From a virus, in the IMG/VR virus record IMGVR_UViG_3300044641_007032, positions 1 through 23,971 of that record: a stretch of DNA of 23,971 bases. One strand, written 5' to 3'. The notes under the pieces are model-generated. The model saw only the letters and a list, made by a program, of their open reading frames with translations. It was not told where the DNA came from and made no database searches. The translations under genes were made by a program, and so were the position numbers. Positions 1,061 to 18,657 of the stretch are shown here, in pieces. Positions within the stretch are counted from its first letter, which is position 1. Every line of letters begins with the position of its first letter.

Positions 1061-1119
1061 CGCCACAACCCACCGGGCACCCAGGCAAACGCACGCGAAT
1101 GACTGTACCTGAACATTCG

Positions 1120-1125
1120 TATAAT
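1120..1125 (+). promoter_or_regulatory. Candidate -10 box of the membrane/protease operon
   Basis: A perfect TATAAT at 1120-1125, within TCGTATAATGAAGG, lies after the terminator and before the first gene of the operon. No good -35 box is spaced from it. The related string TGTAATGAAGG occurs at 5052-5062. Confidence 0.4.
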
Positions 1126-1146
1126 GAAGGCAGGCGCGGAAACGCA

Positions 1147-1392
1147 ATGCGTCGCGCGCGTGTGGAGGAAAGCCTTTTCCGACACACGGCGCGTGGCCGA
1201 GAGGCGCTCGCGCCGCCCGCAGAGGGCGGGTCGCATGTCCACTACCAACCGCTGCGACGTACCGGAATCGGGTGCATCACCAGCCGCCGCGATCCGTCTA
1301 TCGCGACACAGCAGCAGTTTCTTGAGCTTTTGGCGTTTGAGATGAAAACCGACATTGCGACCGTGAGGTCGATTTTGCAGAGGGACAGATGA
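1147..1392 (+). CDS. Hypothetical basic protein (81 aa)
   Basis: The C-terminal part, TQQQFLELLAFEMKTDIATV, is a convincing helix, and the stop overlaps the next start as ATGA. The N-terminal half is rich in Arg and Gly and is less certain. The frame is open from an ATG at 1099, but that lies upstream of the TATAAT at 1120-1125, so the ATG at 1147 is preferred. Function unknown. Confidence 0.5.
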   Translation: MRRARVEESLFRHTARGREALAPPAEGGSHVHYQPLRRTGIGCITSRRDPSIATQQQFLELLAFEMKTDIATVRSILQRDR

Positions 1393-1715
1393 GGCTTCTG
1401 GCTGCAATTCTGGTGTGCCTCGTCGCGTCGGCCCAGGCGGACGACCTGCTGGTCTTTACTCGGCCTGGTTGCCCTCCCTGCGAGGCCGCCAAGGCAGCGC
1501 TAGCGGAAGACCCGTCGATCGCGGTCGGCTACAAGCTGCAGCAGGTGGACGTCCAGCAAAACCGCGAAATGGCACGCAAGTACGGGGTTTCGTCCGTCCC
1601 TGTGTTCGTAATTGTTCGCTCCGGCAAAGAGGTCCGGCGAACCGTCGGATTCCGCTCTGTCGAGCGGCTTCGGGATTGGCTGGATTCCCCAAAACTCCGA
1701 CGGAGGTGGCGATGA
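1389..1715 (+). CDS. Secreted thioredoxin/glutaredoxin-like protein
   Basis: A 108-residue protein with an N-terminal signal peptide (MRLLAAILVCLVASAQA) followed by a thioredoxin fold. The redox motif CPPC is at residues 28-31 and the conserved cis-proline is in SSVPVF at residue 71. It should exchange or form disulfides outside the cytoplasm or in the periplasm. ATGA junctions link it to both neighbours. It lies in the same operon as a membrane-anchored cysteine protease and a Cys-containing small membrane protein, which could be substrates; that link is inferred from context only. Confidence 0.85.
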   Translation: MRLLAAILVCLVASAQADDLLVFTRPGCPPCEAAKAALAEDPSIAVGYKLQQVDVQQNREMARKYGVSSVPVFVIVRSGKEVRRTVGFRSVERLRDWLDSPKLRRRWR

Positions 1716-2053
1716 CGCCGCAGGACATCGAGGCTGAGATTCGCGCGTACATTCAGCGTGCAAAGGGGATTGCTGCGGACGGGCTGACGCTCGTGGAGTT
1801 CGCGGTGCTGACCGTGGATCTGCTCAAGCTCGCGATGAAGGCCGTAGACAGCCTGCCCACCGAGGGGGCGGCGAAGAAGGAGTTCGTACTCCAGGCCGTC
1901 GACCTGCTGTTTGCAGGCATCGCCGACAGGCTCGTGCCGTGGCCGGCCATCCCGCTCTGGTTAGTTGCAAAGCCGATTGTGAGGCAGGTGGTGCTTGCCG
2001 TCGCGTCTGGCGTGATTGAGGCAATTCTCCCAATGGTGAGGGCCGGAACATGA
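1712..2053 (+). CDS. Membrane-associated helical protein, possible holin-like
   Basis: This 113-residue protein starts at an ATG overlapping the previous stop as ATGA. It is almost entirely helical, with amphipathic helices around residues 26-45 and a long hydrophobic stretch from about residue 63, including VPWPAIPLWLVAKPIVRQVVLA. The ribosome binding site GGAGG is at 1701-1705. The composition suits a membrane-binding or pore-forming protein, and the neighbouring genes encode membrane proteins and a protease, so a lysis or envelope role is possible. I see no family signature that proves a holin. Confidence 0.65.
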   Translation: MTPQDIEAEIRAYIQRAKGIAADGLTLVEFAVLTVDLLKLAMKAVDSLPTEGAAKKEFVLQAVDLLFAGIADRLVPWPAIPLWLVAKPIVRQVVLAVASGVIEAILPMVRAGT

Positions 2054-2316
2054 TCTTGGAAATCGTCGCCCTGCTTGCGATCGCGGGGCTTGTCGTTCTG
2101 GTGTGGCCGTCGTCGTCAAAGGCGGCCCCTAGCTTGTCGGCGACGCTCACGGCCCAGCAATCTCCGCTGCCATCCACCGTCCAAACGTTCCAGGGGGCGA
2201 TGGTCTGCCTCAGCCACGTGCGATCGCGCCTGCTGGTGACAGACCAGCTTGGCGACGAGGCAAAGTCCGCAATCGAAACGCTTACTCACGCTCTCGTCGA
2301 GGCCTCCGACAAATGA
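2050..2316 (+). CDS. Small single-pass membrane protein (88 aa)
   Basis: Residues 2-20 (ILEIVALLAIAGLVVLVWP) form one membrane segment or uncleaved signal anchor. A Ser/Thr/Pro-rich linker follows, then a helical region ending SAIETLTHALVEASDK. The gene overlaps both neighbours by ATGA. One-segment proteins like this can act as spanins, holin partners or anchors, but nothing specific is visible. No lipobox is present. Confidence 0.65.
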   Translation: MILEIVALLAIAGLVVLVWPSSSKAAPSLSATLTAQQSPLPSTVQTFQGAMVCLSHVRSRLLVTDQLGDEAKSAIETLTHALVEASDK

Positions 2317-2765
2317 CACCAAGGCATACCCTCGGAGTCGGATTGCTGGCTGCGGCCGGTGTGGTGGCGATCGCCGGCAGGCAGGATCCAGGACCAGCAC
2401 CGACGCCGGGACCGGCCGACATTGTGCTCCGAGGGAAATTTGTTGGCCCGACGGCCCTCGCGGACGCCGCGGCCGTTGGTGCCCATTGGCTCGAGGTCGC
2501 GGACGAAATTGAGTGGGACGGGCTCCAGGCCGAACAGCTCTACAAGACGGGTCACTCGCTCGACGTGTTGCGTACGAGAGCCCGTGAACTGCGGTGGAAG
2601 GGGGAGCGGATCGGCGAGAGGCAGAAAGACGTCCAGCAGGCGGCCCATGACTACCTAGACCAAAAGGTTGGCCCAGACGGCGGGCCGTTGACGCCGGAGC
2701 GGCGGCGGGCGTGGGTGGAGGCCTACCGGAGCCTCGGGAGGGCGGCGGTCGATGCGGCGAACTGA
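2313..2765 (+). CDS. Membrane-anchored or secreted helical protein (150 aa)
   Basis: The protein has an N-terminal hydrophobic segment (LGVGLLAAAGVVAIAG), a Pro-rich linker (PGPAPTPGPAD), then a mostly helical domain with many charged residues (RARELRWKGERIGERQKDVQQA). It is probably exported and tethered. It begins at an ATGA junction and its end overlaps the protease gene by 14 bases. I do not recognise the family. Confidence 0.65.
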   Translation: MTPRHTLGVGLLAAAGVVAIAGRQDPGPAPTPGPADIVLRGKFVGPTALADAAAVGAHWLEVADEIEWDGLQAEQLYKTGHSLDVLRTRARELRWKGERIGERQKDVQQAAHDYLDQKVGPDGGPLTPERRRAWVEAYRSLGRAAVDAAN

Positions 2766-3834
2766 TCTTAAATGGCTGATCGTCGTCGCGATTGTTGCCT
2801 ACGCGGCCCTCGTTGCTGTTCGACGTGGCGGCCAGCAGCAGCCGGACGCCGTGCCCGTGCAGAGCGGGTACGTGCCAAACCCCGAAGGCGTGCGGCGGTT
2901 CCTTGATGAGCTTCCTCAGCCTTACTTCGCCCAGGCAGGTGCCGAGTGCATCAAGAATGCCAAATACAAGGACGTCTTTTTATATCGCCACATGCTTCGA
3001 GCCCATGAGGCGAAGTATGGGAAGCCGTTTGTCGTCGGACGGCAACAACGGGGATCGTGCGTGGCTTGGGGCGCCATGCACGCGGTCTACTGTGGCGAGT
3101 GCGTTTCGTGGGCAATCGGAGAGCGACCAGATCCGCCGCTCATGCCTGCGACCGCCCCAATTTACGGCGGAAGCCGCGTCGAATCGAGACGATCCGACCC
3201 AAGGGGTTTTGATGGGTCTTCTCCTGTTGGCGGCTTTTCCGACGGCAGTTTTGGAGCCGCGGCGGCCCGCTGGCTCAAGAACTGGGGGGTCGTCTACGCC
3301 CAAAACTATCCAGGGATATTTGATTACACCGTCGCCGGCTTCTCTGGCGATCGCGAGGGAGAGGAAGGTGCGTACGGTGCCGGCGGAAAGAACGACAACT
3401 ACCGCCTCGACACGATCGCCAAGCAGACTCCGTGTCGCCACGTCGCCAAGGTAAGCACGTGGGAGGAACTGTGCTCGGCTTTAGAGTCTGGCTTCTGTGT
3501 GACCATCGCCAGCGGACAGGGATTCTCCTCGCACGCAAACGAGTATTCGATAGCGGAGGCGAGTGGCGCCTGGGCCCATCAAATGGTGGCGTTTTCTGTA
3601 ATGCACAAAAAGAATGGGCAAGCACCGTGCGACATGGTTGCCATTTTGAATTCGTGGGGCCCGTCGTGGCTGAAATACGAAAGGAAGTTTCCGCCCGACC
3701 TTCCAAGCGGAGCGTTTTGGGCTCGCAGAGAAGTCGTTGAGCGAATGATTAGATCGGACTCGTGGGCCATCGGTGATACCGCGTTTAGGTACCGCGACGT
3801 GGACCACATGAACGTGCTAGGAACTGAACCATGA
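2752..3834 (+). CDS. Papain-like (C1A) cysteine protease, membrane-anchored
   Basis: A 360-residue protein with an N-terminal membrane anchor at residues 8-23, then a papain-type domain. The active-site block is QQRGSCVAW, with the nucleophile Cys103 and the oxyanion Gln at 98 or 99. The catalytic His276 is in AHQMVAF and Asn300 is in ILNSWGPSW, matching the family NSWG signature. The N-terminal 95 residues could act as a pro-region. C1A proteases are unusual in tailed phages. The enzyme probably faces the periplasm or cell surface and could process host envelope proteins or take part in lysis. The thioredoxin-like protein encoded upstream could handle its several cysteines. Function in this element is inferred; the fold call is firm. 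Confidence 0.88.
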   Translation: MRRTDLKWLIVVAIVAYAALVAVRRGGQQQPDAVPVQSGYVPNPEGVRRFLDELPQPYFAQAGAECIKNAKYKDVFLYRHMLRAHEAKYGKPFVVGRQQRGSCVAWGAMHAVYCGECVSWAIGERPDPPLMPATAPIYGGSRVESRRSDPRGFDGSSPVGGFSDGSFGAAAARWLKNWGVVYAQNYPGIFDYTVAGFSGDREGEEGAYGAGGKNDNYRLDTIAKQTPCRHVAKVSTWEELCSALESGFCVTIASGQGFSSHANEYSIAEASGAWAHQMVAFSVMHKKNGQAPCDMVAILNSWGPSWLKYERKFPPDLPSGAFWARREVVERMIRSDSWAIGDTAFRYRDVDHMNVLGTEP

Positions 3835-4058
3835 ATCGCAAGACAGTATTGATTTGCCTTGTTGTGGCACTGTTGGCATACACCGTCGGCTCACGTTCTA
3901 GCTCTCCAGACCGCCCGATCCTGCGATGGATCAGCCGTGCCGTCGGCGTGTGGCTCATGTTCCGCGACGAGCCTCCGCAAGAGCGCCCCAGCGACAACGC
4001 CCGGTACGTCCACGCGATCGGGCCGGCGGACGGCATCGACCACAGAAACGCACTCTAG
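3831..4058 (+). CDS. Small membrane protein (75 aa)
   Basis: The protein starts at an ATGA junction with the protease gene. Residues 4-20 (KTVLICLVVALLAYTVG) form a membrane anchor, followed by a short soluble tail including a Trp-containing amphipathic helix (ILRWISRAVGVWLMFRDE). It may partner the protease or belong to a lysis set; neither is shown by the sequence. Confidence 0.6.
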   Translation: MNRKTVLICLVVALLAYTVGSRSSSPDRPILRWISRAVGVWLMFRDEPPQERPSDNARYVHAIGPADGIDHRNAL

Positions 4059-4070
4059 GAGACGGCCGTC

Positions 4071-4274
4071 ATGCGATTCCTTCTCGGTCTTTCACTACTG
4101 CTGAACGGCCTGCTTGCGGGCCTTGTCGTCGGCCACCTGACGACGATCAGCGCCGAACGGTGCGAGTGCAGGAGGATCCGCGAGGCGGACGAGGTCGACC
4201 GAGGCCCCTTTCCGACGGGGTGGGTGGTGCCAGATGGGTCCGCGAAGCCAAGGCCCTCTGGAGACGCCCCGTGA
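4071..4274 (+). CDS. Small membrane protein (67 aa)
   Basis: Residues 2-22 are strongly hydrophobic (RFLLGLSLLLNGLLAGLVVG), followed by a short hydrophilic tail with a CEC pair. The ribosome binding site AGGAGA overlaps the stop of the previous gene. The stop overlaps the next gene as GTGA. Function unknown; the Cys pair could be redox-active or metal-binding. Confidence 0.6.
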   Translation: MRFLLGLSLLLNGLLAGLVVGHLTTISAERCECRRIREADEVDRGPFPTGWVVPDGSAKPRPSGDAP

Positions 4275-4507
4275 GCCTTCTCCGTTCCATTCTGCTCTGG
4301 ATCGCCTCCCTTTTTGCCGTGCCGGACGCGATCGACCTCGAGCACGCCAGGAGTGCGGCGGCCGTCGCCGGAGCCCGTGCCAGCATGGAGCGTGAGGACA
4401 CCCCGCCGGAGCCGGAGCCAGCGGCCTGCCAGAAATGCAACGGGCAGGGGTGGGTTCGGATTGACGCGACAACGAGACGGCGATGCGAGTGCCAGCCGAG
4501 CCCGTGA
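4271..4507 (+). CDS. Membrane-associated protein with DnaJ-type zinc motif (78 aa)
   Basis: GTG start at 4271 overlapping the previous stop. A hydrophobic N-terminus (SLLRSILLWIASLFAVP) is followed by an Ala/Glu-rich stretch and a C-terminal CQKCNGQGW...RRRCEC block. The CxxCxGxG half-motif resembles one zinc-binding unit of DnaJ-type domains. The gene is read through its junctions with both neighbours (GTGA and TGATG). It probably binds a protein partner or metal; no enzyme domain is present. Confidence 0.6.
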   Translation: MSLLRSILLWIASLFAVPDAIDLEHARSAAAVAGARASMEREDTPPEPEPAACQKCNGQGWVRIDATTRRRCECQPSP

Positions 4508-4896
4508 TGTCAACGCTGCTAGACCACCTTACGGAAAGCTGCCGCACCGCTGCCGGCGGACGGGCTAGGGTCGCCGGCAAGCGGGCGACCGCCGAGCTTG
4601 TGAAGCTCGTCGTGCGACATTGGCCGCATGCGCACCTTCGCGATCTTCTCAAAAGGGGCGGAAAGAATCACGCCACCCTTGACCATGCAATGCTGCTCGT
4701 TCGAGCCCAGGTCCGCGAACACTGGGAGGCCCGCCACGGGGTCGGCCCCATGTGGGCGATGGTGCACCAAGGGCTTGTTTCTGTCATCTGCCACGTGTTG
4801 GCCGAGTCGTGGTTTCGCGACCCGCTAGTGAGGGAGCCGATGAAGCGTCTCTCGCGTGACATATCCATGGGGCTTGATGACGAATCCGTCGAATAA
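4507..4896 (+). CDS. Hypothetical helical protein (129 aa), last gene of operon
   Basis: The ATG at 4507 shares one base with the previous stop (TGATG), implying translational coupling; in-frame starts at 4483 (ATG) and 4504 (GTG) are alternatives. The protein is soluble and helical, with His- and Arg-rich parts (RHWPHAHLRDLLKRGGKNH) and no signal peptide. No motif is recognised. The operon ends here; the next 186 bases are non-coding. Confidence 0.55.
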   Translation: MSTLLDHLTESCRTAAGGRARVAGKRATAELVKLVVRHWPHAHLRDLLKRGGKNHATLDHAMLLVRAQVREHWEARHGVGPMWAMVHQGLVSVICHVLAESWFRDPLVREPMKRLSRDISMGLDDESVE

Positions 4897-4946
4897 ACCA
4901 AAACAAAACCTAGCGGCTGCAACACGCCTCTAGGTCGCCGGCGGGA

Positions 4947-5002
4947 GCCCCCATCCACGCCGCCGCGGCCGCTGCCGGGTGGGGGCCAATCCCGGCAGCG
5001 GC
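4947..5002 (+). ncRNA. Structured non-coding element with possible pseudoknot
   Basis: A 12-bp perfect stem pairs 4968-4979 with 4991-5002 around an 11-base loop. The loop bases TGGGGGC at 4980-4986 are complementary to GCCCCCA at 4947-4953 upstream, so an H-type pseudoknot is possible. No U-run follows the stem at once; the first T-run is at 5038-5043. It may be a terminator, a 5' regulatory element of the glycan cassette, or a stabilising structure. Confidence 0.4.
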
Positions 5003-5051
5003 ACCGCACACACAGGCTTAAAGGCTCCATTACGCAGTTTTTTAAAATCAA

Positions 5052-5062
5052 TGTAATGAAGG
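5052..5062 (+). promoter_or_regulatory. Candidate -10 region of the glycan cassette
   Basis: TGTAATGAAGG at 5052-5062 matches ten of eleven bases of TATAATGAAGG at 1120-1130. It covers an in-frame ATG at 5056, which argues that translation starts later, at 5083. No -35 box is clear; an AT-rich run TTTTTTAAAA lies just upstream. Confidence 0.3.
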
Positions 5063-5082
5063 CCTCTCTGCAGGACTGCCGC

Positions 5083-6150
5083 ATGATCGACCATCTCCAC
5101 GCCATCGCTGCCCACGCCTATTACGTCGGCGAGCACGCCCTTGGACGTCGGTCGTGCGAGCGGCTGTTGCGGCACGAATTGCCCGAGAATTTGGAGCCGG
5201 TAGTCCGCCGCAACCGGACGTGGTACACGCAGCGGATTGACGAGCTGGCCGGCACCAAGTTCGTGCAAATTGATGTTGAGCCCGCCAATCCAGGTTGGTC
5301 GTTATTCAACCCCAGCGTCATCAATCACGGCGGCCGGTTTGTCGTCAACGTCCGATCCTCCAATTACCGCATTGTCGAGGGACGGTACGTCATGCCGGAG
5401 GAAGACCGCGGCGTCATTCGTACCGTCAACATTCTGGCGGATTACTCCTATTCCTTGGAGCACTGCGGCCCAACGACAACGCTCTTGGCCGAGTACGAGG
5501 CGAGCGATTACCAGGTCGACGGCCTTGAGGACGTGAGGCTCAACGGCCTGGAAGACGGCACCATTCTCGGCAGCGCCACCATCCGCAACTGGGCCGGCCT
5601 TGACGGCACCTGCCGGATCGGTGCTTGCGAAATACTCAGAGAATCCGGCAGCGTGCTCAATCTGCGGTGCCACGAAACCGCAGACGGCCAGCACGAAAAG
5701 AATTGGATGCCGATTGTCGGACGGCGGGCATGGATTTATTCGTGCTCGGCCAACGGCAAAACCTGCACGGCCGAAGAAGAACAAGGACGGTGGGCCATCA
5801 CGCCATCCGCCGACGCTCCGGCGGTTGCCCGCAGTTTCCGCGGTGGATCGCAAATCGTGCCGATCGGCTACGGCAAATGGCTCGGCCTGGTGCACGAAGT
5901 CGCCCACGACCTAGACGGCCGGCGAATCTACGAGCACCGGATGGTGCGGTTCGACGAGTCGGCCGGCTGGAGGATTGACGCGGTTTCCATGCCGTTCGCG
6001 TTTCGCGAACCGCGGGCGATTGAGTTTGCCGCTGGGCTAGCCGTCAACGGCGACCGCCTGGTGGCGTCTTTTGGCGTTCGAGACGCGGAGGCATGGTTAT
6101 GCGAAATGCGGCTAAGCGAAGTAAGCGATCTGTTGGAGCCGCTCGAATGA
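5083..6150 (+). CDS. GH130-like beta-propeller protein, glycan-active
   Basis: A 355-residue protein with a short helical N-terminus (about 60 residues) and a beta-propeller domain. Landmarks are FNPS at 75-78, GLEDVR at 147-152, EKNW at 205-208, FRGGSQ at 252-257, LVHE at 269-272, YEHRMV at 283-288, IEFAAGL at 313-319 and SFGVRDAEA at 329-337. The pattern follows the five-bladed fold of GH130 mannoside phosphorylases and related transferases, often found beside glycosyltransferases. Substrate cannot be read from sequence. The ATG at 5083 with AGGA upstream is preferred over the ATG at 5056. Its stop overlaps the methyltransferase gene as ATGA. Confidence 0.75.
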   Translation: MIDHLHAIAAHAYYVGEHALGRRSCERLLRHELPENLEPVVRRNRTWYTQRIDELAGTKFVQIDVEPANPGWSLFNPSVINHGGRFVVNVRSSNYRIVEGRYVMPEEDRGVIRTVNILADYSYSLEHCGPTTTLLAEYEASDYQVDGLEDVRLNGLEDGTILGSATIRNWAGLDGTCRIGACEILRESGSVLNLRCHETADGQHEKNWMPIVGRRAWIYSCSANGKTCTAEEEQGRWAITPSADAPAVARSFRGGSQIVPIGYGKWLGLVHEVAHDLDGRRIYEHRMVRFDESAGWRIDAVSMPFAFREPRAIEFAAGLAVNGDRLVASFGVRDAEAWLCEMRLSEVSDLLEPLE

Positions 6151-6698
6151 TGCCGGTGGATCTGTACGACCGCGTCAAGCAGGTTCTTGAAGCCAACTGG
6201 CGAGAGAACGATTGGTTTTTTTGCGACGCAACGGTCATCGGCCATTACGCCATGAAGGCCGCGATTTGCGAGAGGTTCCGCCCGCGACGGATCATCGAAA
6301 TCGGGACCCGCTGCGGCTACTCAATCTTGGCTTTTCGGCAGGTGGCTCCGAGGGCCTCGTATCTGTGCATTGATGGTTGCATGGACGACGATTCGCTGGA
6401 CTGCCTAGCTCATGCCAAGCGGCTTATCGAGCGGCACGACATCGAGGCGGATCTTGTCATCGTCGACTCGCACGCCGTCAAGAGCTTGCCGAGAGCCTGC
6501 TTTGCGCACGTCGACGGCGATCACTCGTTCGCGGGTGCGCTGGCTGATTTGCGGCTTGTCGCACACTGCAGGGGAATTCTTGCGGACGATGCCTGCAACC
6601 CAGAAGTCGCCAGGGCCGTGGAAGTGTTTTCGAAGGAAGCCAACCGCCGGGTGGAGTATTTCGAAGACGGGCTGCGTCGCGTGGCGGTGCTCACATGA
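6147..6698 (+). CDS. Class I SAM-dependent methyltransferase (Methyltransf_24-like)
   Basis: A 183-residue protein. Motif I for SAM binding is EIGTRCGYS at residues 51-59, preceded by RIIEIG. HVDGDHSF at 121-128 is the acidic strand-4 motif of the Methyltransf_24 group, and a second acidic turn is YLCIDGC. Members of this group methylate sugars and small molecules, often within glycan clusters. ATGA overlaps on both sides place it firmly in one operon with the propeller protein and the glycosyltransferase, suggesting O-methylation of the glycan they make or modify. Confidence 0.8.
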   Translation: MMPVDLYDRVKQVLEANWRENDWFFCDATVIGHYAMKAAICERFRPRRIIEIGTRCGYSILAFRQVAPRASYLCIDGCMDDDSLDCLAHAKRLIERHDIEADLVIVDSHAVKSLPRACFAHVDGDHSFAGALADLRLVAHCRGILADDACNPEVARAVEVFSKEANRRVEYFEDGLRRVAVLT

Positions 6699-7750
6699 AA
6701 ATTGGTGTTTACGCACTGGCGAAGAACGAGGCGGCAAACGTGCCGGCGTGGGAATCGTCCTGCCGCGAGGCGGACGTTCGCGTCGTCACCGACACCGGCT
6801 CGGCCGACAATACGGCAGAGCTGCTCGCCCAGGCGGGCGTCACGGTCGCCCGCGGCTGCCCTATGCCGTGGCGATGGGACGACGCCCACAACCTATCGCT
6901 TTTCCACCTGCCTGCCGACGTGGACGTGTGCGTCCGGCTCGACCTCGACGAAGTGTTTGACCCAGGCTGGCGGGAGGCCATAGAGGCCGATTGGCAGGCC
7001 GACACGACACGGCTCCGCTACTGGTATCACTGGTCGGATAGCGTCAAGTTTCTGTGCGACCGCGTTCATTCCCGCAGCGGCTATCGGTGGCAGGGAGCGA
7101 CGCACGAGGGGCTTGTCTGCTGGTCCGGCGAGGACCGACAAGCGATGAGCGATCGGCTGCGAATTCGCCATCATCGCCAGCCGGGAAAGCGGCATAGCAC
7201 GGACCTCACGCTTTTGAGGCAGGCCGTCAAGGAAAACCCGCTGGACAGCCGGATGCTCTGGTATCTGGCGAGGGAGCTGGACTACGCACGCGACCCAGAA
7301 GCCTTTGAGGCGTGGCAGCGTTACCTGCGGATGCCTGGAGGCAATCCAACGGAACGAGCGTATGCGTGCCGGATGCTCGCCAACATCGAGAAGGACAAAG
7401 CAAAGCGGCACCTGCTGACAGCCATCCTTGAAAGCCCGCTCGAGCCCGAGGCGTTTGTCGCGTTCGCGGAAATGGCCTATCGCATGGAGGATTGGGTGAG
7501 CTGCCTCTACTACGCTCGCCAAGCCTGTTCGTGCCCGGCCGGATCGCAGACCCACGCGAGCGACCCGCGGGCCTACGGAGAGCTGGCCCCAGACCTGGCA
7601 AGCGTCGCCGCTGCTCGCCTTGGGCGGGACGCGGAGGCATTGGCGTTTGCCCGCGAGGCCGTGAGGCGGTGCCCGAGCGATCCACGCCTTGTCGGCAATA
7701 TGGCTGTCCTGGAACGTAAGGCTACGGAGGTCGGCCCAAAGGCCGCGTGA
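6695..7750 (+). CDS. Family 2-type glycosyltransferase with C-terminal TPR-like repeats
   Basis: A 351-residue protein. The N-terminal GT-A fold shows YALAKNE, then VTDTGSADNT (residues 31-40) for nucleotide-sugar binding, and LDLDE with the metal-binding DxD at 83-85. HxGxxH-like and WQGATHEG blocks follow. The C-terminal half (about residues 165-350) is helical, with TPR-like pairs such as AEMAYRMEDWVSCLYYARQA and ARLGRDAEALAFAREAVRRC. Such GT2-TPR proteins occur in phages and bacteria and transfer sugars to proteins or surface glycans. The position next to tail genes suggests glycosylation of virion proteins or of host receptors. Confidence 0.82.
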   Translation: MKIGVYALAKNEAANVPAWESSCREADVRVVTDTGSADNTAELLAQAGVTVARGCPMPWRWDDAHNLSLFHLPADVDVCVRLDLDEVFDPGWREAIEADWQADTTRLRYWYHWSDSVKFLCDRVHSRSGYRWQGATHEGLVCWSGEDRQAMSDRLRIRHHRQPGKRHSTDLTLLRQAVKENPLDSRMLWYLARELDYARDPEAFEAWQRYLRMPGGNPTERAYACRMLANIEKDKAKRHLLTAILESPLEPEAFVAFAEMAYRMEDWVSCLYYARQACSCPAGSQTHASDPRAYGELAPDLASVAAARLGRDAEALAFAREAVRRCPSDPRLVGNMAVLERKATEVGPKAA

Positions 7751-7751
7751 A

Positions 7752-8219
7752 ATGGGAAGCATTGCCGTTGAGATTGCCGACGCCCTTGCGGCCGGCCTTT
7801 CTGCTTACACCTTCTCCGAACCATACGAGTCGATTACAGCCGTCCGCAGCTACGTCCCTGACTACGAGGCGACCGAGCTAAAGACGCTCAAGGTGTCGGT
7901 TGTCCCTGGACCGGTCGAGACGGAGCGTGCCAGCCGCGGGCAAGAGCTTTTTACGCAGCAGGTTTCTGTCGTCATCGGAAAGCTCGTCGACGGCACGAAC
8001 GAAGACATCGACGCCCTCACGCTCTTGGGCCAAGAGATCATCGACGCGATCCGGTCTGAGGTGCTCGTCACGACAGGAATGCCGGAGGAAGCCCACTACT
8101 TCGCGGCCTCGATGGAAGTGCAGTTTGATCGCGACTCCCTGACGAAACGGAGAATTTTCCTCGCCCAGATCGACGTCACATACCGCGTACCGCGGCCTCG
8201 CATCGAGGCACAGGAGTAG
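7752..8219 (+). CDS. Tail terminator/completion-like protein
   Basis: A 155-residue protein beginning MGSIAVEIADALAAG. It has the layout of tail completion proteins: an N-terminal helix, a beta-rich middle with KVSVVPG and QQVSVVIG strands, helices around NEDIDALTLLGQEIIDAI, and a final strand RRIFLAQIDVTYRV. It would cap or finish the tail tube at the head end. It starts 1 nt after the glycosyltransferase stop and precedes the neck-type gene, the usual order in siphoviruses. Assignment is by pattern and position. Confidence 0.65.
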   Translation: MGSIAVEIADALAAGLSAYTFSEPYESITAVRSYVPDYEATELKTLKVSVVPGPVETERASRGQELFTQQVSVVIGKLVDGTNEDIDALTLLGQEIIDAIRSEVLVTTGMPEEAHYFAASMEVQFDRDSLTKRRIFLAQIDVTYRVPRPRIEAQE

Positions 8220-10531: not shown

Positions 10532-12865
10532 ATGTCGTCAGCCGCAGGGGTCCGCGCAGGCGGGGCCTTCATCGAAATTTTTGCGAAGGACGGCCAATTC
10601 CAGCAGGCGATGCTGAGGGTCCAGGGCAAGCTCAAGGCCGTCGGCAGGATGATGCAGCAGATGGGGACGATGCTCTCCCTCGCCGGGACTGCGATCGGCG
10701 TGCCGATGGTACTCGCCGCGAGGCAGGCTGCCACGTTTGAAGACGCCTTGCTCGGTATGAAAGCCGCGGCCGGCCTGACGGACAAGCAGGTTCAGCAGTT
10801 GGCGGACGAGGCTCTGCGGCTTTCAAAGGCAATGGGAATTGACCCCGCCAAGATCGCAAATGCGTTTCTGGAGCTTACGAAGGCCGGCATGTCGGTCGAG
10901 GACGTTTTGGCAGGCGCCGGCCGGTCGGCCGTGGAATTCGCACGGGTGTCTGGCGTCGAGATGAAGGACGCCGCCGAGTTTATGAAGGTGGCGATGAACA
11001 CGTTCGGCATCTCGGCGAAGGATGCCGTCGACACGCTTTCCGCGGCGGCGGACGCCAGCGAAACGTCGATCGCTGCGATGGTCGAATCGTTTTCTCAGGT
11101 TGGTTCGGCAGGAAAAACATTTGACCAGACGCTATTCGGCGTCGCGCAGGCGATGGCGGCCCTCGCGAAGTACGGCATCTCGGGCGAGGAGGCCGGAACG
11201 GCGATCAAGACGCTACTCACAAAGCTCGTGGCCCCGACGGGCGAGGCCCACGAGGCCTTGGCGACATTGGGCCTGTCGGTGCGAGACTTTCGCGATGAGG
11301 CCGGGAAGCTGCTTCCGATCGCCCAGATCGCCGGGGTATTCGAAAAAGCGCTATCCAAGATGGGAGGCAACGCCGAGGACGTGATGATGGCCCAGGCGGC
11401 CCTCGTCGACGTGTTTGAGCAACGCGGCATCAAGGTCATCGGGGCGTTCGCGGACCTCGGCGAGAAGGGGTTTGAAGACATCGCGGCCGCCATGGAGGGC
11501 AACCTGCCAGTGGCGGCGAAGTTCGAGATCATGATGAGCGGCATCACCGGAGGATTTGAGAGGCTTTTTGCGGCGACGAAACGTCTATCCATCGCGTTCG
11601 CCGGTGCCCTTGGAAGCTCCGTATCGTCTGTCGTGAGCGGCATCGTCAAGGTGATGGATTTCATTTCTCAACTCATCGCGAAGTTTCCCATACTGAGCAA
11701 AGTGGCCGCCGGCGCTGCTGCCGTTTTGATCGGCCTAGGCGCTGCCTTGATCGTCGTGGGTCTAGGCTTGCGCGTTGTTGGGGTTGCCATCGCGGCGATT
11801 ACGAGCCCGATAGGAATTGTGGTCGCGGCTGTTGGCGGCCTTTTGGCGGTGGCCTACAAGCTGTCGCCGGCGTTCAAAGAAGCCGTCGATTCAATCATGG
11901 CGGCGTTTGCGAAGCTGGATATTGGCCTAGCCTTCCAGCAGATCAACGTCACCATTGCCATTGCACTTACTCGCATGGCGAAATTGTTTCACGTCACATT
12001 TGCCGGCGTCATGGCACGCGCCAGCGAAATGGTCGATTTCATCGTCGACCAGGTAAACAGAGCCGCGAACCAACTCAACAGATTAGTGGGCGGCAACGGA
12101 AACGAGTTTCCAGTGCTCGGCAGGGATGGTCGCCAAAAGCGAGCAGACGACCGACGCAAAGCTATCGAGGACCTCGGCAAGAAATACGACGATACCGTCC
12201 GCGAGCTGCGAGCCGAGTTGGCAGACGCCAAAAGAAAGGCGAATCGGCAGCCGGACCCAGCGCCGGCCGCCGAGGGTAACGACGCGAGGAGAGACAGGTT
12301 CCGCAAGCCGCTCGGTGGTCCAGGTGCAATGACGAAAGCCGACCCGATCGCGTCTCTTGGCACGTTCGCCAGCTCCATGCTCGGCCAGCTCGGCATCGGG
12401 CCGAAAATTGACATTCGCGAAAGGGCTGCCAAGGCACAAGAAAAGGCCGCGGACGCGATGAAGGGCCTCAATGACCGCATCGGCGGCTTCCTGGACGAGA
12501 TGAAGAAGCGAGTCGGCGACCGGCAGCCTAGCGGTGCGACCATCGACACGACGAAGGGCGACGTAAACAAGACTCCAGAGATGCAGGCCGACCCCAGCAA
12601 GCTGCCGTGGTGGGCACCGCAATCAGAGTTCGAAAAGCTCAACAAGGGGCCTGGTGGCGGGATGAGGCTGGAGGACGCCATCGAGCAGCTCAAGGTGTCG
12701 CCCAGGGCAGGCTACGGCAACGAGCCACCTAAGCCTCCGCTAGACAAAACGAGCAAAGACATGGTTTCGGCGAGCGAGCAGACGGCGGCCGCTATGCAGC
12801 GTGCAGTCGATTACCTCTCAAAAATCTACGAGCAAACAAAACGAGGTGGCGTCGCGTTCGCGTGA
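10532..12865 (+). CDS. Tail tape measure protein
   Basis: A 777-residue protein, the longest in the window. The N-terminal part carries the TP901/PhageMin tail pattern (MGTMLSLAGTAIGVPMVLAARQAATFEDALLGMKAAAGL, then repeated helices with MAKYGISGEEAGTAIKTLLTKL-like blocks). A long hydrophobic region (about residues 390-446) could insert into the host membrane during injection. The C-terminal third is charged, helical and Lys/Asp/Pro-rich. By the usual rule of about 1.5 Angstrom per residue, the tail would be roughly 115 nm. The position after G/GT is standard. Confidence 0.88.
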   Translation: MSSAAGVRAGGAFIEIFAKDGQFQQAMLRVQGKLKAVGRMMQQMGTMLSLAGTAIGVPMVLAARQAATFEDALLGMKAAAGLTDKQVQQLADEALRLSKAMGIDPAKIANAFLELTKAGMSVEDVLAGAGRSAVEFARVSGVEMKDAAEFMKVAMNTFGISAKDAVDTLSAAADASETSIAAMVESFSQVGSAGKTFDQTLFGVAQAMAALAKYGISGEEAGTAIKTLLTKLVAPTGEAHEALATLGLSVRDFRDEAGKLLPIAQIAGVFEKALSKMGGNAEDVMMAQAALVDVFEQRGIKVIGAFADLGEKGFEDIAAAMEGNLPVAAKFEIMMSGITGGFERLFAATKRLSIAFAGALGSSVSSVVSGIVKVMDFISQLIAKFPILSKVAAGAAAVLIGLGAALIVVGLGLRVVGVAIAAITSPIGIVVAAVGGLLAVAYKLSPAFKEAVDSIMAAFAKLDIGLAFQQINVTIAIALTRMAKLFHVTFAGVMARASEMVDFIVDQVNRAANQLNRLVGGNGNEFPVLGRDGRQKRADDRRKAIEDLGKKYDDTVRELRAELADAKRKANRQPDPAPAAEGNDARRDRFRKPLGGPGAMTKADPIASLGTFASSMLGQLGIGPKIDIRERAAKAQEKAADAMKGLNDRIGGFLDEMKKRVGDRQPSGATIDTTKGDVNKTPEMQADPSKLPWWAPQSEFEKLNKGPGGGMRLEDAIEQLKVSPRAGYGNEPPKPPLDKTSKDMVSASEQTAAAMQRAVDYLSKIYEQTKRGGVAFA

Positions 12866-15526: not shown

Positions 15527-15548
15527 AGGCTTAGGCATGGAGGCAGCC

Positions 15549-15839
15549 GTGGCTCGCGATCGTCACACCGTCAGGAGCCGTCGCGTCTACATCGGCGAAA
15601 AACGCTGGCAGATCAATCACGTCCGCTACCCTCGCGATCGCGACGGCGATTGCAACTGGTCTAAGCGTGTTATTCGCGTCGCGGCAAACCTTCGCGGCGC
15701 GTCGCTTGCAGACGCCCTCATCCACGAAATCACGCACGCACGCTTTCCCGATCTTTCCGAGGAGACGGTCGACGAATTCGCGAGCACCGTGGCCGGGATC
15801 CTCGCGGCAGAAGGACTCTTAACGGAGGAGTATGACTGA
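15549..15839 (+). CDS. Small zinc metalloprotease-like protein (HExxH)
   Basis: The protein has the zinc-binding motif HEITH at residues 59-63 within ALIHEITHARF, with Glu at about residue 76 as possible third ligand (TVDEFAS). It is 96 residues long from a GTG preceded by GGAGG at 15539-15543. An ATG at 15537 without a ribosome binding site would add four residues. It resembles minimal zincins of the phage/ImmA-like kind, which can cleave regulators, but the substrate is unknown. It ends at a TGATG junction with the next gene. Confidence 0.7.
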   Translation: MARDRHTVRSRRVYIGEKRWQINHVRYPRDRDGDCNWSKRVIRVAANLRGASLADALIHEITHARFPDLSEETVDEFASTVAGILAAEGLLTEEYD

Positions 15840-17305: not shown

Positions 17306-18085
17306 TTGGCAGAATCTCAGGCGTTGATAGAAGGAAGGTTGCCGGACAATTACATCGCTGAAATAAGGCGGCGAAAAAGTCGGTTTATCGGACAGTGGCA
17401 TGGAACGTCGGGGTCGCTCGCCGCAGACTGCCATTGGCTCCTTGTAGAGCGTGAACAATTACTAGAGGAGATTGCAACGATGACGGAAGCACTGCAGGAG
17501 GCAAATTCGAAGCTACGGCAGGCCGTCGAGGCTAGGATCGCCGCGAAGGCGGCCGGCTGCTGCGACGGTGGGCGGTGCCATCCGCGGGCGATCGACACGT
17601 CCGGCCCGATGGTCGACGTCGACCAGGCCATCGCCGAGGAGGACGAACGGACGCCCGATCACCCGTTTGAGCAAGTTGCGGGCATGTCGATGCCGCAGAT
17701 GGAGGCGGCATGGGCTGGCGTTAAGGCCCGCGTGGCTGAAATGCAGGAGCGAATCCGCGAGCCGGCCAGCACCAACGTTTACGCGGCTGCCCCGCAATCC
17801 TCGAGCGGGACCCCAGAGGCCGAGAGGCTGCTGGGCGACGTGCTTGGGATCGTCCGCGATCGTCGAGCAAAGTACGGGCCACCTAGCGAGCATTTCGCCC
17901 GCACCGTCGGGGCTATAAACGCCATTTTCGCCCACAAGCTCAAGGAACCTCTGACGCTTGGCGATTGGGCTCAGATCATGATTCTCGACAAGCTGGCGCG
18001 GCACCAGGAGAAGCCACAGCGGGATAACCCGGCCGATACGGCCGGCTATGCGGGGTGTTGGGCCGAGGTCGAGCCAGGTCTGTAG
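17306..18085 (+). CDS. DUF6378-type protein with coiled-coil N-terminus
   Basis: A 259-residue protein. The C-terminal domain has RRAKYGPPSEHF (186-197), DWAQIMILDKLAR (220-232) and RDNPADTAGYAG (239-250), the conserved pattern of DUF6378, which resembles MazG-type helical proteins. The N-terminal part is coiled-coil (EREQLLEEIATMTEALQEANSKLRQAVEAR) and contains CCDGGRC. TTG start at 17306 with GAGGGGTGA upstream; an ATG at 17480 with AGAGGAG is the alternative. Possible role in nucleotide metabolism is inferred only from the resemblance. Confidence 0.65.
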   Translation: MAESQALIEGRLPDNYIAEIRRRKSRFIGQWHGTSGSLAADCHWLLVEREQLLEEIATMTEALQEANSKLRQAVEARIAAKAAGCCDGGRCHPRAIDTSGPMVDVDQAIAEEDERTPDHPFEQVAGMSMPQMEAAWAGVKARVAEMQERIREPASTNVYAAAPQSSSGTPEAERLLGDVLGIVRDRRAKYGPPSEHFARTVGAINAIFAHKLKEPLTLGDWAQIMILDKLARHQEKPQRDNPADTAGYAGCWAEVEPGL

Positions 18086-18098
18086 CCTTACAATGGGG

Positions 18099-18104
18099 GT
18101 ATAC
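18099..18104 (+). promoter_or_regulatory. Candidate -10 box GTATAC
   Basis: GTATAC at 18099-18104 in the gap between the DUF6378-type gene and the next gene repeats the core of the elements at 606 and 9006. The following sequence differs (GAGCGCC), so the evidence is weaker here. Confidence 0.3.
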
Positions 18105-18150
18105 GAGCGCCTCCCTATTGGCCGCTCGCAATCCCCATGAGGAATCGCTG

Positions 18151-18657
18151 ATGCCCACTACCCTGTCCGGCTCGCGTTCGGCGTCGCTCTCCTGGTCGTT
18201 TTCCGACGCCCCGTCGATTGGCAGCCTTTCAGAATCCGCGAGTATCTCCACGTCGCGGAATATCGCGAACGGCACGGGCGAGGGCCAGGCGAACGTCGCG
18301 TGGCGGAATCGCGTCACGATCGCGAGCGGCGATACCTATTCGGTGTCGCTCGACAACCTCGGAGCGACGGCGTTCGCGTTCGGCGGCAAGGTCGTCATGA
18401 CAAAGCTCAAGGAGATGCGGGTCGCCGTCAACACGACGGCGGCCGGCCGCTACGTTCTCGTCGGGGTCATCGGGCCGGGCGATACGACCGGCTACTCCGC
18501 TCGAGTGAACCGCGGCGGCGACTATGCCGTGGCGGACTACCTGGACGGCTGGCCGGTCACGAACACGAATAAGACCGTCTACATCGCCAACCCCTCGGGC
18601 GGCAGCGTCGAGATTGATATTGCGTTCGTCGGCGTCGGCTCGACGGTCGACACTTAA
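18151..18657 (+). CDS. Beta-rich virion-type protein (168 aa)
   Basis: The protein is rich in Ser, Thr, Gly and beta strands, for example SGSRSASLSWSFSDAP and VTIASGDTYSVSLDNLGATAFAFGG. It lacks Cys and resembles structural or tail-associated proteins. It ends with a TAA that overlaps the stop of a minus-strand gene at TTAA (18654-18657). It is the last plus-strand gene. Confidence 0.5.
   Translation: MPTTLSGSRSASLSWSFSDAPSIGSLSESASISTSRNIANGTGEGQANVAWRNRVTIASGDTYSVSLDNLGATAFAFGGKVVMTKLKEMRVAVNTTAAGRYVLVGVIGPGDTTGYSARVNRGGDYAVADYLDGWPVTNTNKTVYIANPSGGSVEIDIAFVGVGSTVDT

Follow-up and report, generated by a model that had tools for sequence, protein, structure and literature searches.

A conserved gene cassette around a membrane-anchored papain-like protease in probable planctomycete viruses, with a candidate role in lysis

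Gene content and layout of the cassette

The window analyzed here is the whole of a virus record of 23,971 bases (IMG/VR record IMGVR_UViG_3300044641_007032), and our subject is a block of ten plus-strand genes at positions 1099–4896, built around a papain-like protease with a predicted membrane anchor. We refer to this block and its relatives in other genomes as the cassette, and tentatively read it as a lysis system of planctomycete phages. Neighboring genes overlap by 1–14 nt, the sole gap being one of 12 nt between orfE and orfF; the preliminary description, in which all genes were joined by overlaps, thus holds for every junction except this one.

The protease gene (2752–3834) encodes 360 amino acids with a hydrophobic N-terminal segment at residues 5–23. 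Its papain-type catalytic positions are Cys103 (codon TGC, 3058–3060), His276 (3577–3579) and Asn300 (3649–3651). Directly upstream is orfD (2313–2765), predicted to be a membrane-anchored helical protein and a constant partner of the protease. It is preceded by orfC (2050–2316), which has an N-terminal membrane segment and homologues in the virus records and planctomycete genome loci numbered G001, G002, L010 and L090 in our collection, and by orfB (1712–2053), a small protein with hydrophobic segments that looks holin-like by eye only. Further upstream are the gene of an exported thioredoxin with a CPPC motif (1389–1715; homologue in L010) and orfA (1099–1392), a small conserved but optional protein whose homologues in G001, G002 and G003 keep the same order. 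On the other side of the protease, orfE (3831–4058) and orfF (4071–4274) each have a single membrane segment, F2 (4271–4507, GTG start) combines a hydrophobic N-terminus with a Cys-rich CxxCxGxG...CxC region, and orfG (about 4507–4896) is a conserved, optional and apparently soluble protein.

Hydrophobic segments were called from Kyte-Doolittle values over 19 residues with a threshold of at least 1.6. In the window, they were detected in the thioredoxin, orfB, orfC, the protease, orfE, orfF and F2; orfD stays under this value, and its homologues in G001 and G002 exceed it. The small genes are, judged by substitution patterns, real genes beyond chance, because the proportion of nonsynonymous differences (pN) is well below that of synonymous ones (pS) in all eight genes compared between the window and L010. 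For the protease, which is 82% identical in L010 over the codons compared, the values are 0.142 and 0.753.

Fold and active site of the protease

As a single sequence, the window protease had no matches in viral_contigs, the cultured-phage collection, PDB, PHROGs or Pfam, and the protease was absent from the matches in 50,697 phage records. Homologues with 45–46% identity are encoded by G001 and G002, two phage records related to the window through the tape measure gene. For three members of the family, the Pfam C1 profile gave no match at E ≤ 5, and protease profiles run against PDB sequences returned just one papain-like protease, at E 0.87, together with noise. Since the Pfam C1 profile fails to recognize it, we name the enzyme papain-like and place it in no named C1A subfamily.

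A first AlphaFold model, made from three sequences, was poor (predicted local distance difference test, pLDDT, 38.9) and was set aside. The model based on a 34-sequence alignment reached a pLDDT of 84.8 and a predicted template modelling score (pTM) of 0.83. Its closest solved structure is xylellain (3ois; VIA-align Z 22.1, root-mean-square deviation 3.3, 241 residues, 17% identity). Like xylellain and other C1A proteases such as the cathepsins and Cwp84 (Z 17.3), the model has the papain fold, over residues 31–344, the Gln-Cys-His-Asn set and a pro-like N-terminal segment; alignments to cathepsin proenzymes (Z 17–19) start at model residue 37, ahead of the mature domain. It differs from these enzymes in its low sequence identity (at most 17%), the missing Pfam C1 match, the N-terminal anchor, and its place in a phage operon that also encodes membrane proteins and a thiol partner. 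A papain fold is likewise found in C1 peptidases that BFVD lists for uncultured Caudovirales; compared by fold and sequence, they match the protease at Foldseek E values of about 1e-8 to 1e-7 and are 10–17% identical to it.

Active-site residues were surveyed in 123 homologues, comprising 80 viral loci (see below), the window, G001, G002 and 40 loci from planctomycete genomes. Gln98, Cys103, His276 and Asn300 are kept in all 83 viral proteins. Over the full set, the cysteine is present in 122 (the remaining sequence is truncated), the histidine in 123 and Gln98 in 116, while the asparagine is found in 119 and replaced by glutamine in four. Among the 40 planctomycete-genome proteases, this corresponds to 39 with the cysteine (one truncated), 40 with the histidine, and 36 with asparagine plus four with glutamine; the latter are L098, L099, L100 and L155. 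Taken together, the fold model, the structural matches and the conserved catalytic residues bear out the earlier suggestion of a papain-like protease: as modeled, it belongs among the papain-like enzymes, its active site is intact, and it is probably catalytically active.

The membrane anchor, also part of the preliminary description, is a general feature of the viral enzymes, being present in 83/83 of them, as well as in 18/40 genome-derived ones. It was found in all 34 members of the alignment (A2), with a mean Kyte-Doolittle value of 2.34 and a Gly+Ala fraction of 0.29.

Distribution, thiol partner and hosts

Scanning IMG/VR with a three-sequence protease profile yielded 335 confirmed stretches; the 80 best of these make up the set called the 80 loci here. 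Many of these contigs are short and redundant, and their proteases form 31 clusters at 90% identity. The gene set that the preliminary description proposed to look for in other phages is indeed there: orfD was found in 79 of the loci, orfB in 77, orfE in 74 and F2 in 67, most loci having them in the order orfB-orfD-protease-orfE-F2. Together with the membrane segments of orfB, orfC, orfE, orfF and F2 in the window, this conserved set substantiates the claim that the protease lies among membrane proteins. The short and divergent orfC is detectable by sequence in few of the loci, orfG in 14 by BLAST and in more by hidden Markov model (HMM) searches, and orfF, besides the window, only in L010 (1/80). 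The view that C1A proteases are rare in tailed phages stands for cultured phages, where no match was found, and fails for environmental virus data, where one pattern scan shows this family, undetected in Pfam and PHROGs, to be common.

Cassettes may also carry additional small membrane proteins. One resembling the YeaQ/YmgE 'transglycosylase-associated' proteins is encoded between the protease and orfE in G709 (31000–31227) and G004 (12092–12319), and a similar one near the cassette in G165 (region 17905–18156).

The secreted CPPC redox protein of the preliminary description is recognizable as a member of the thioredoxin family (Pfam Thioredoxin, 3.4e-11) with a signal-like N-terminus. As a separate gene it recurs only in L010 among the 80 loci (1/80), and its usual counterpart in virus contigs is the Cys-rich F2. 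In planctomycete genome data, an exported thioredoxin-domain protein is encoded 3′ of the protease in Blastopirellula marina DSM 3645 and similar genomes (G010, G134, G346, G352), in RI_54 (L092), and in G312 and G165; in the last two, an F2-like Cys-rich region precedes the thioredoxin domain, forming an F2-thioredoxin fusion. HMM searches of the 40 genome-derived loci placed a thioredoxin 3′ of the protease in 11 and an F2 relative in seven more. Further loci have short proteins ending in C-x-G-x-C, recognized by eye only. We considered that the thioredoxin might be a chance neighbor and rejected this, as several planctomycete genomes again have thioredoxin genes or fusions next to the protease. 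We conclude from these gene neighborhoods that the protease regularly has an exported cysteine protein as a partner, whether or not that protein contains a thioredoxin domain.

A scan of the genome collection returned four loci, in a Pirellulales metagenome-assembled genome (MAG), a Planctomycetaceae MAG, 'bacterium RI_54' and B. marina DSM 3645. All of them are MAGs or isolates, three of the four are titled as planctomycetes, and B. marina is cultured. Protease matches were found in 13/392 genomes of a phylum sample (at no better than E 5.5e-5 in G296 and 1.4e-4 in G386) and in 28/296 genomes of an order sample; one planctomycete genome, G486, has two different copies of the cassette (L143, L163). 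These matches support the planctomycete host named in the preliminary description as the probable host of cassette-bearing phages.

Position, candidate lysis function and rival explanations

In G001 and G002, the block follows exonuclease and DUF6378 genes and precedes a minus-strand cluster, at the end of the run of tail genes, and G003 has it in the same order and place. In the planctomycete genomes L090, L093/G010, G346 and G352, it lies, as judged by eye, just upstream of terminase-like genes. In all of these it is co-directed with late genes, beside terminase-like genes or the tail end; it lies elsewhere in G005, G006, G334 and the window. The window block is shifted relative to G001, G002, G003 and L010, so that the gene at 18055–18657 is directly followed by the minus-strand cluster, which may reflect misassembly. 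A search for the window gene order through its glycan gene found no cassette gene in L165–L168. Because its content is constant while its position varies, the cassette appears to behave as a single functional unit.

We favor, tentatively, the explanation that the cassette is mobile, probably expressed late, and serves to breach the envelope of the planctomycete host at the end of infection; on the comparative data we put it at slightly less than even odds. The inner membrane would be acted on or gated by the small membrane proteins orfB, orfC, orfE and orfF, and the anchored protease, with orfD as its membrane partner, would work at its outer face. Thiol-disulfide chemistry would come from the exported thioredoxin or F2 and could serve either of two ends: maintaining the active-site cysteine in reduced form where the compartment is oxidizing, or breaking disulfides in wall proteins to make them accessible to the protease. 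We infer late expression, the topology of export, proteolytic activity, a wall substrate and lysis itself. Late-gene surroundings are no proof of late timing, and the membrane anchor and membrane-protein neighbors would also suit a host-takeover protease whose task in the infected cell is to degrade or process particular membrane proteins and which has no direct role in lysis. Such a role is improbable, given an exported thiol partner, which indicates the extracytoplasmic side, and a block that contains no regulator.

The arrangement is reminiscent of phage lysis cassettes of holin, endolysin and spanin genes, in that small membrane proteins stand beside an anchored hydrolase and many genomes place the block next to terminase-like genes or behind the tail genes. 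It departs from them in having a protease in the place of the endolysin, a thioredoxin or Cys-rich partner, and no recognized holin, spanin or peptidoglycan hydrolase. A second parallel is with signal-anchor-release (SAR) endolysins, among them P1 Lyz, whose activity is under thiol control: these hydrolases, too, have an N-terminal anchor. Here the anchor is strongly hydrophobic, the enzyme is a papain-like protease, and the thiol chemistry would come from a separate protein. The component folds are known, and the gene combination is undescribed in the sources searched: those parts of the literature on papain-like phage proteases, thioredoxin-holin sets and thiol-controlled SAR endolysins that our searches reached describe no such gene set.

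We searched cassette carriers for conventional lysis genes. Exact terminal repeats are present in three of them (127 bp in G003, 127 bp in G697 and 102 bp in G709). In the complete genome G003, 60 proteins gave 24 Pfam families with no peptidoglycan hydrolase among them, and 40 otherwise unassigned proteins gave seven PHROGs, none for lysis; the scanned set left out the tape measure, exonuclease, portal and shortest open reading frames. Another 40 proteins from G006 and three from G334/G003 gave 20 Pfam families, again without a hydrolase. Single-family searches with positive controls were negative for PF01510 (Amidase_2) in 11 records, for PF00959 (phage lysozyme) and PF05257 (CHAP) in 10 records each, and for PF01464 (SLT) and PF08291 (M15_3) in 16 records each; for G697 and G709, the check consisted of the SLT and M15_3 profiles and reading by eye, and profile searches of this kind could miss a hydrolase of an undescribed type. 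In the G312, G402 and G334 regions, 70 proteins were scanned and the best 25 of 42 Pfam families considered; we draw no negative on hydrolases from them. Nor was a canonical endolysin recognized by eye in G715, G723 and G710, three of the eight gene lists of long cassette-free records with a related tail protein, several of which look like fragments ending near tail genes.

These searches also bear on the idea that the protease is itself a peptidoglycan endopeptidase, that is, an anchored papain-fold endolysin freed or activated by its holin-like neighbors and cutting peptide cross-links instead of proteins. Peptidoglycan hydrolases of the papain superfamily, CHAP and NlpC/P60, are known, and endolysins occur in anchored and anchor-free forms, a split echoed here by the anchored viral proteases (83/83) and the anchor-free ones among the genome-derived set (22/40). 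A suitable substrate may be available, as peptidoglycan containing diaminopimelic acid (DAP) is reported from planctomycetes (PMC4432640). However, both the active-site set and the closest structures point to C1A proteases, which cut proteins, CHAP was undetected in the 10 records searched, and the hydropathy of the anchor is high, all of which makes this alternative unlikely.

The nature of the wall is central to any lysis mechanism. Planctomycete phages have scarcely been studied, and whether protein, peptidoglycan or both form the wall scaffold has been disputed for decades. Published studies describe the Rhodopirellula wall as a disulfide-bonded protein sacculus (PMC2754498), Cys-rich YTV proteins in planctomycete wall preparations with peptidoglycan genes absent in most species (PMC8567305), and a protein wall that resists boiling sodium dodecyl sulfate and is drawn as the outermost layer (PMC3422733). 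For such a disulfide-linked wall, a protease and a disulfide reductase would be the expected toolset. In a specific version of the lysis hypothesis, the thiol reductase would loosen cystine-rich wall proteins, the anchored protease would digest them in place of an endolysin, and the small membrane proteins would control release; we regard this version as quite doubtful. If lysis by the cassette were confirmed, a viral envelope-opening set would be direct evidence of a mechanically important wall component, and the cassette could serve as a tool to lyse planctomycetes.

Several observations weigh against a role in lysis. An inner-membrane-tethered protease may fail to reach an outer protein wall, its anchor seems unlike the weak one expected of SAR endolysins, and in 22/40 genome-derived homologues no anchor was detected. 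Recognition of holins or spanins failed, PHROG matches of the small membrane proteins being weak. DAP has been detected in four planctomycetes, whose cells are sensitive to lysozyme, so a peptidoglycan hydrolase would still be expected (PMC4432640). The YTV domain, a cysteine-rich wall-protein domain, is present in 13/13 protease genomes versus 42/392 of the phylum sample (hypergeometric 3.8e-14); as 292/296 genomes of the order are YTV-positive, this association is confounded by clade and we do not count it as independent proof. In the window, the cassette comes before the glycan genes and the tail genes; in G334, it separates head from tail genes; and in G005 (21080–27408) and G006 (1447–7805; L129), it is found between prohead-protease and capsid genes, an unusual site for lysis genes. 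Finally, among records with a related tail protein, just 14/42 have the protease, several of the negatives exceeding 30 kb; the 42 were searched out of 80 tail-protein loci, the rest being the known positives G001, G002 and G003 or records shorter than about 15 kb.

The location of the block within the head gene cluster of G005 and G006 would fit a virion or head-maturation protease. The N-terminal anchor of all the viral enzymes misfits such a function, and G006 encodes a separate S78 prohead protease, making this explanation very improbable. A prohead-protease candidate of G334 gave no S78 match at the E-value of the G006 match; the S78 protein is that of G006. The finding that the preliminary description named as counting against its proposal, a protease confined to head maturation and lacking the neighbors, is thus not what we see, as the neighbors travel with the protease.

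The many tail-protein relatives without the protease, the free changes in cassette position between phages, the two copies in G486 and the permanent anchor, which suits a long-lived surface enzyme, all favor another explanation. In it, the cassette would be a moron of the late or lysogenic kind, with cell-surface remodeling as its function: the protease would trim or inactivate an envelope protein such as a receptor, excluding phages or altering host behavior, and the thiol partner would keep it active. A near-constant block with five conserved partners, however, exceeds the usual single exclusion gene, and the complete genome G003 shows no other recognized lysis gene set. Surface remodeling or exclusion is a serious rival that ranks next after lysis, possible although we are inclined to doubt it.

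Outside the cassette, the genes at window positions 5056–7750, ahead of the tail genes, encode an unknown protein, a Methyltransf_24 methyltransferase and a glycosyltransferase (phrog_13126). They are about 70–80% identical in relatives and possibly function in glycan modification. A 100-aa protein encoded at 15537–15839 contains the sequence HEITH, looks by eye like a mini zinc metalloprotease, and shares 77% identity with its counterpart in G001 and 89% with that in G002.

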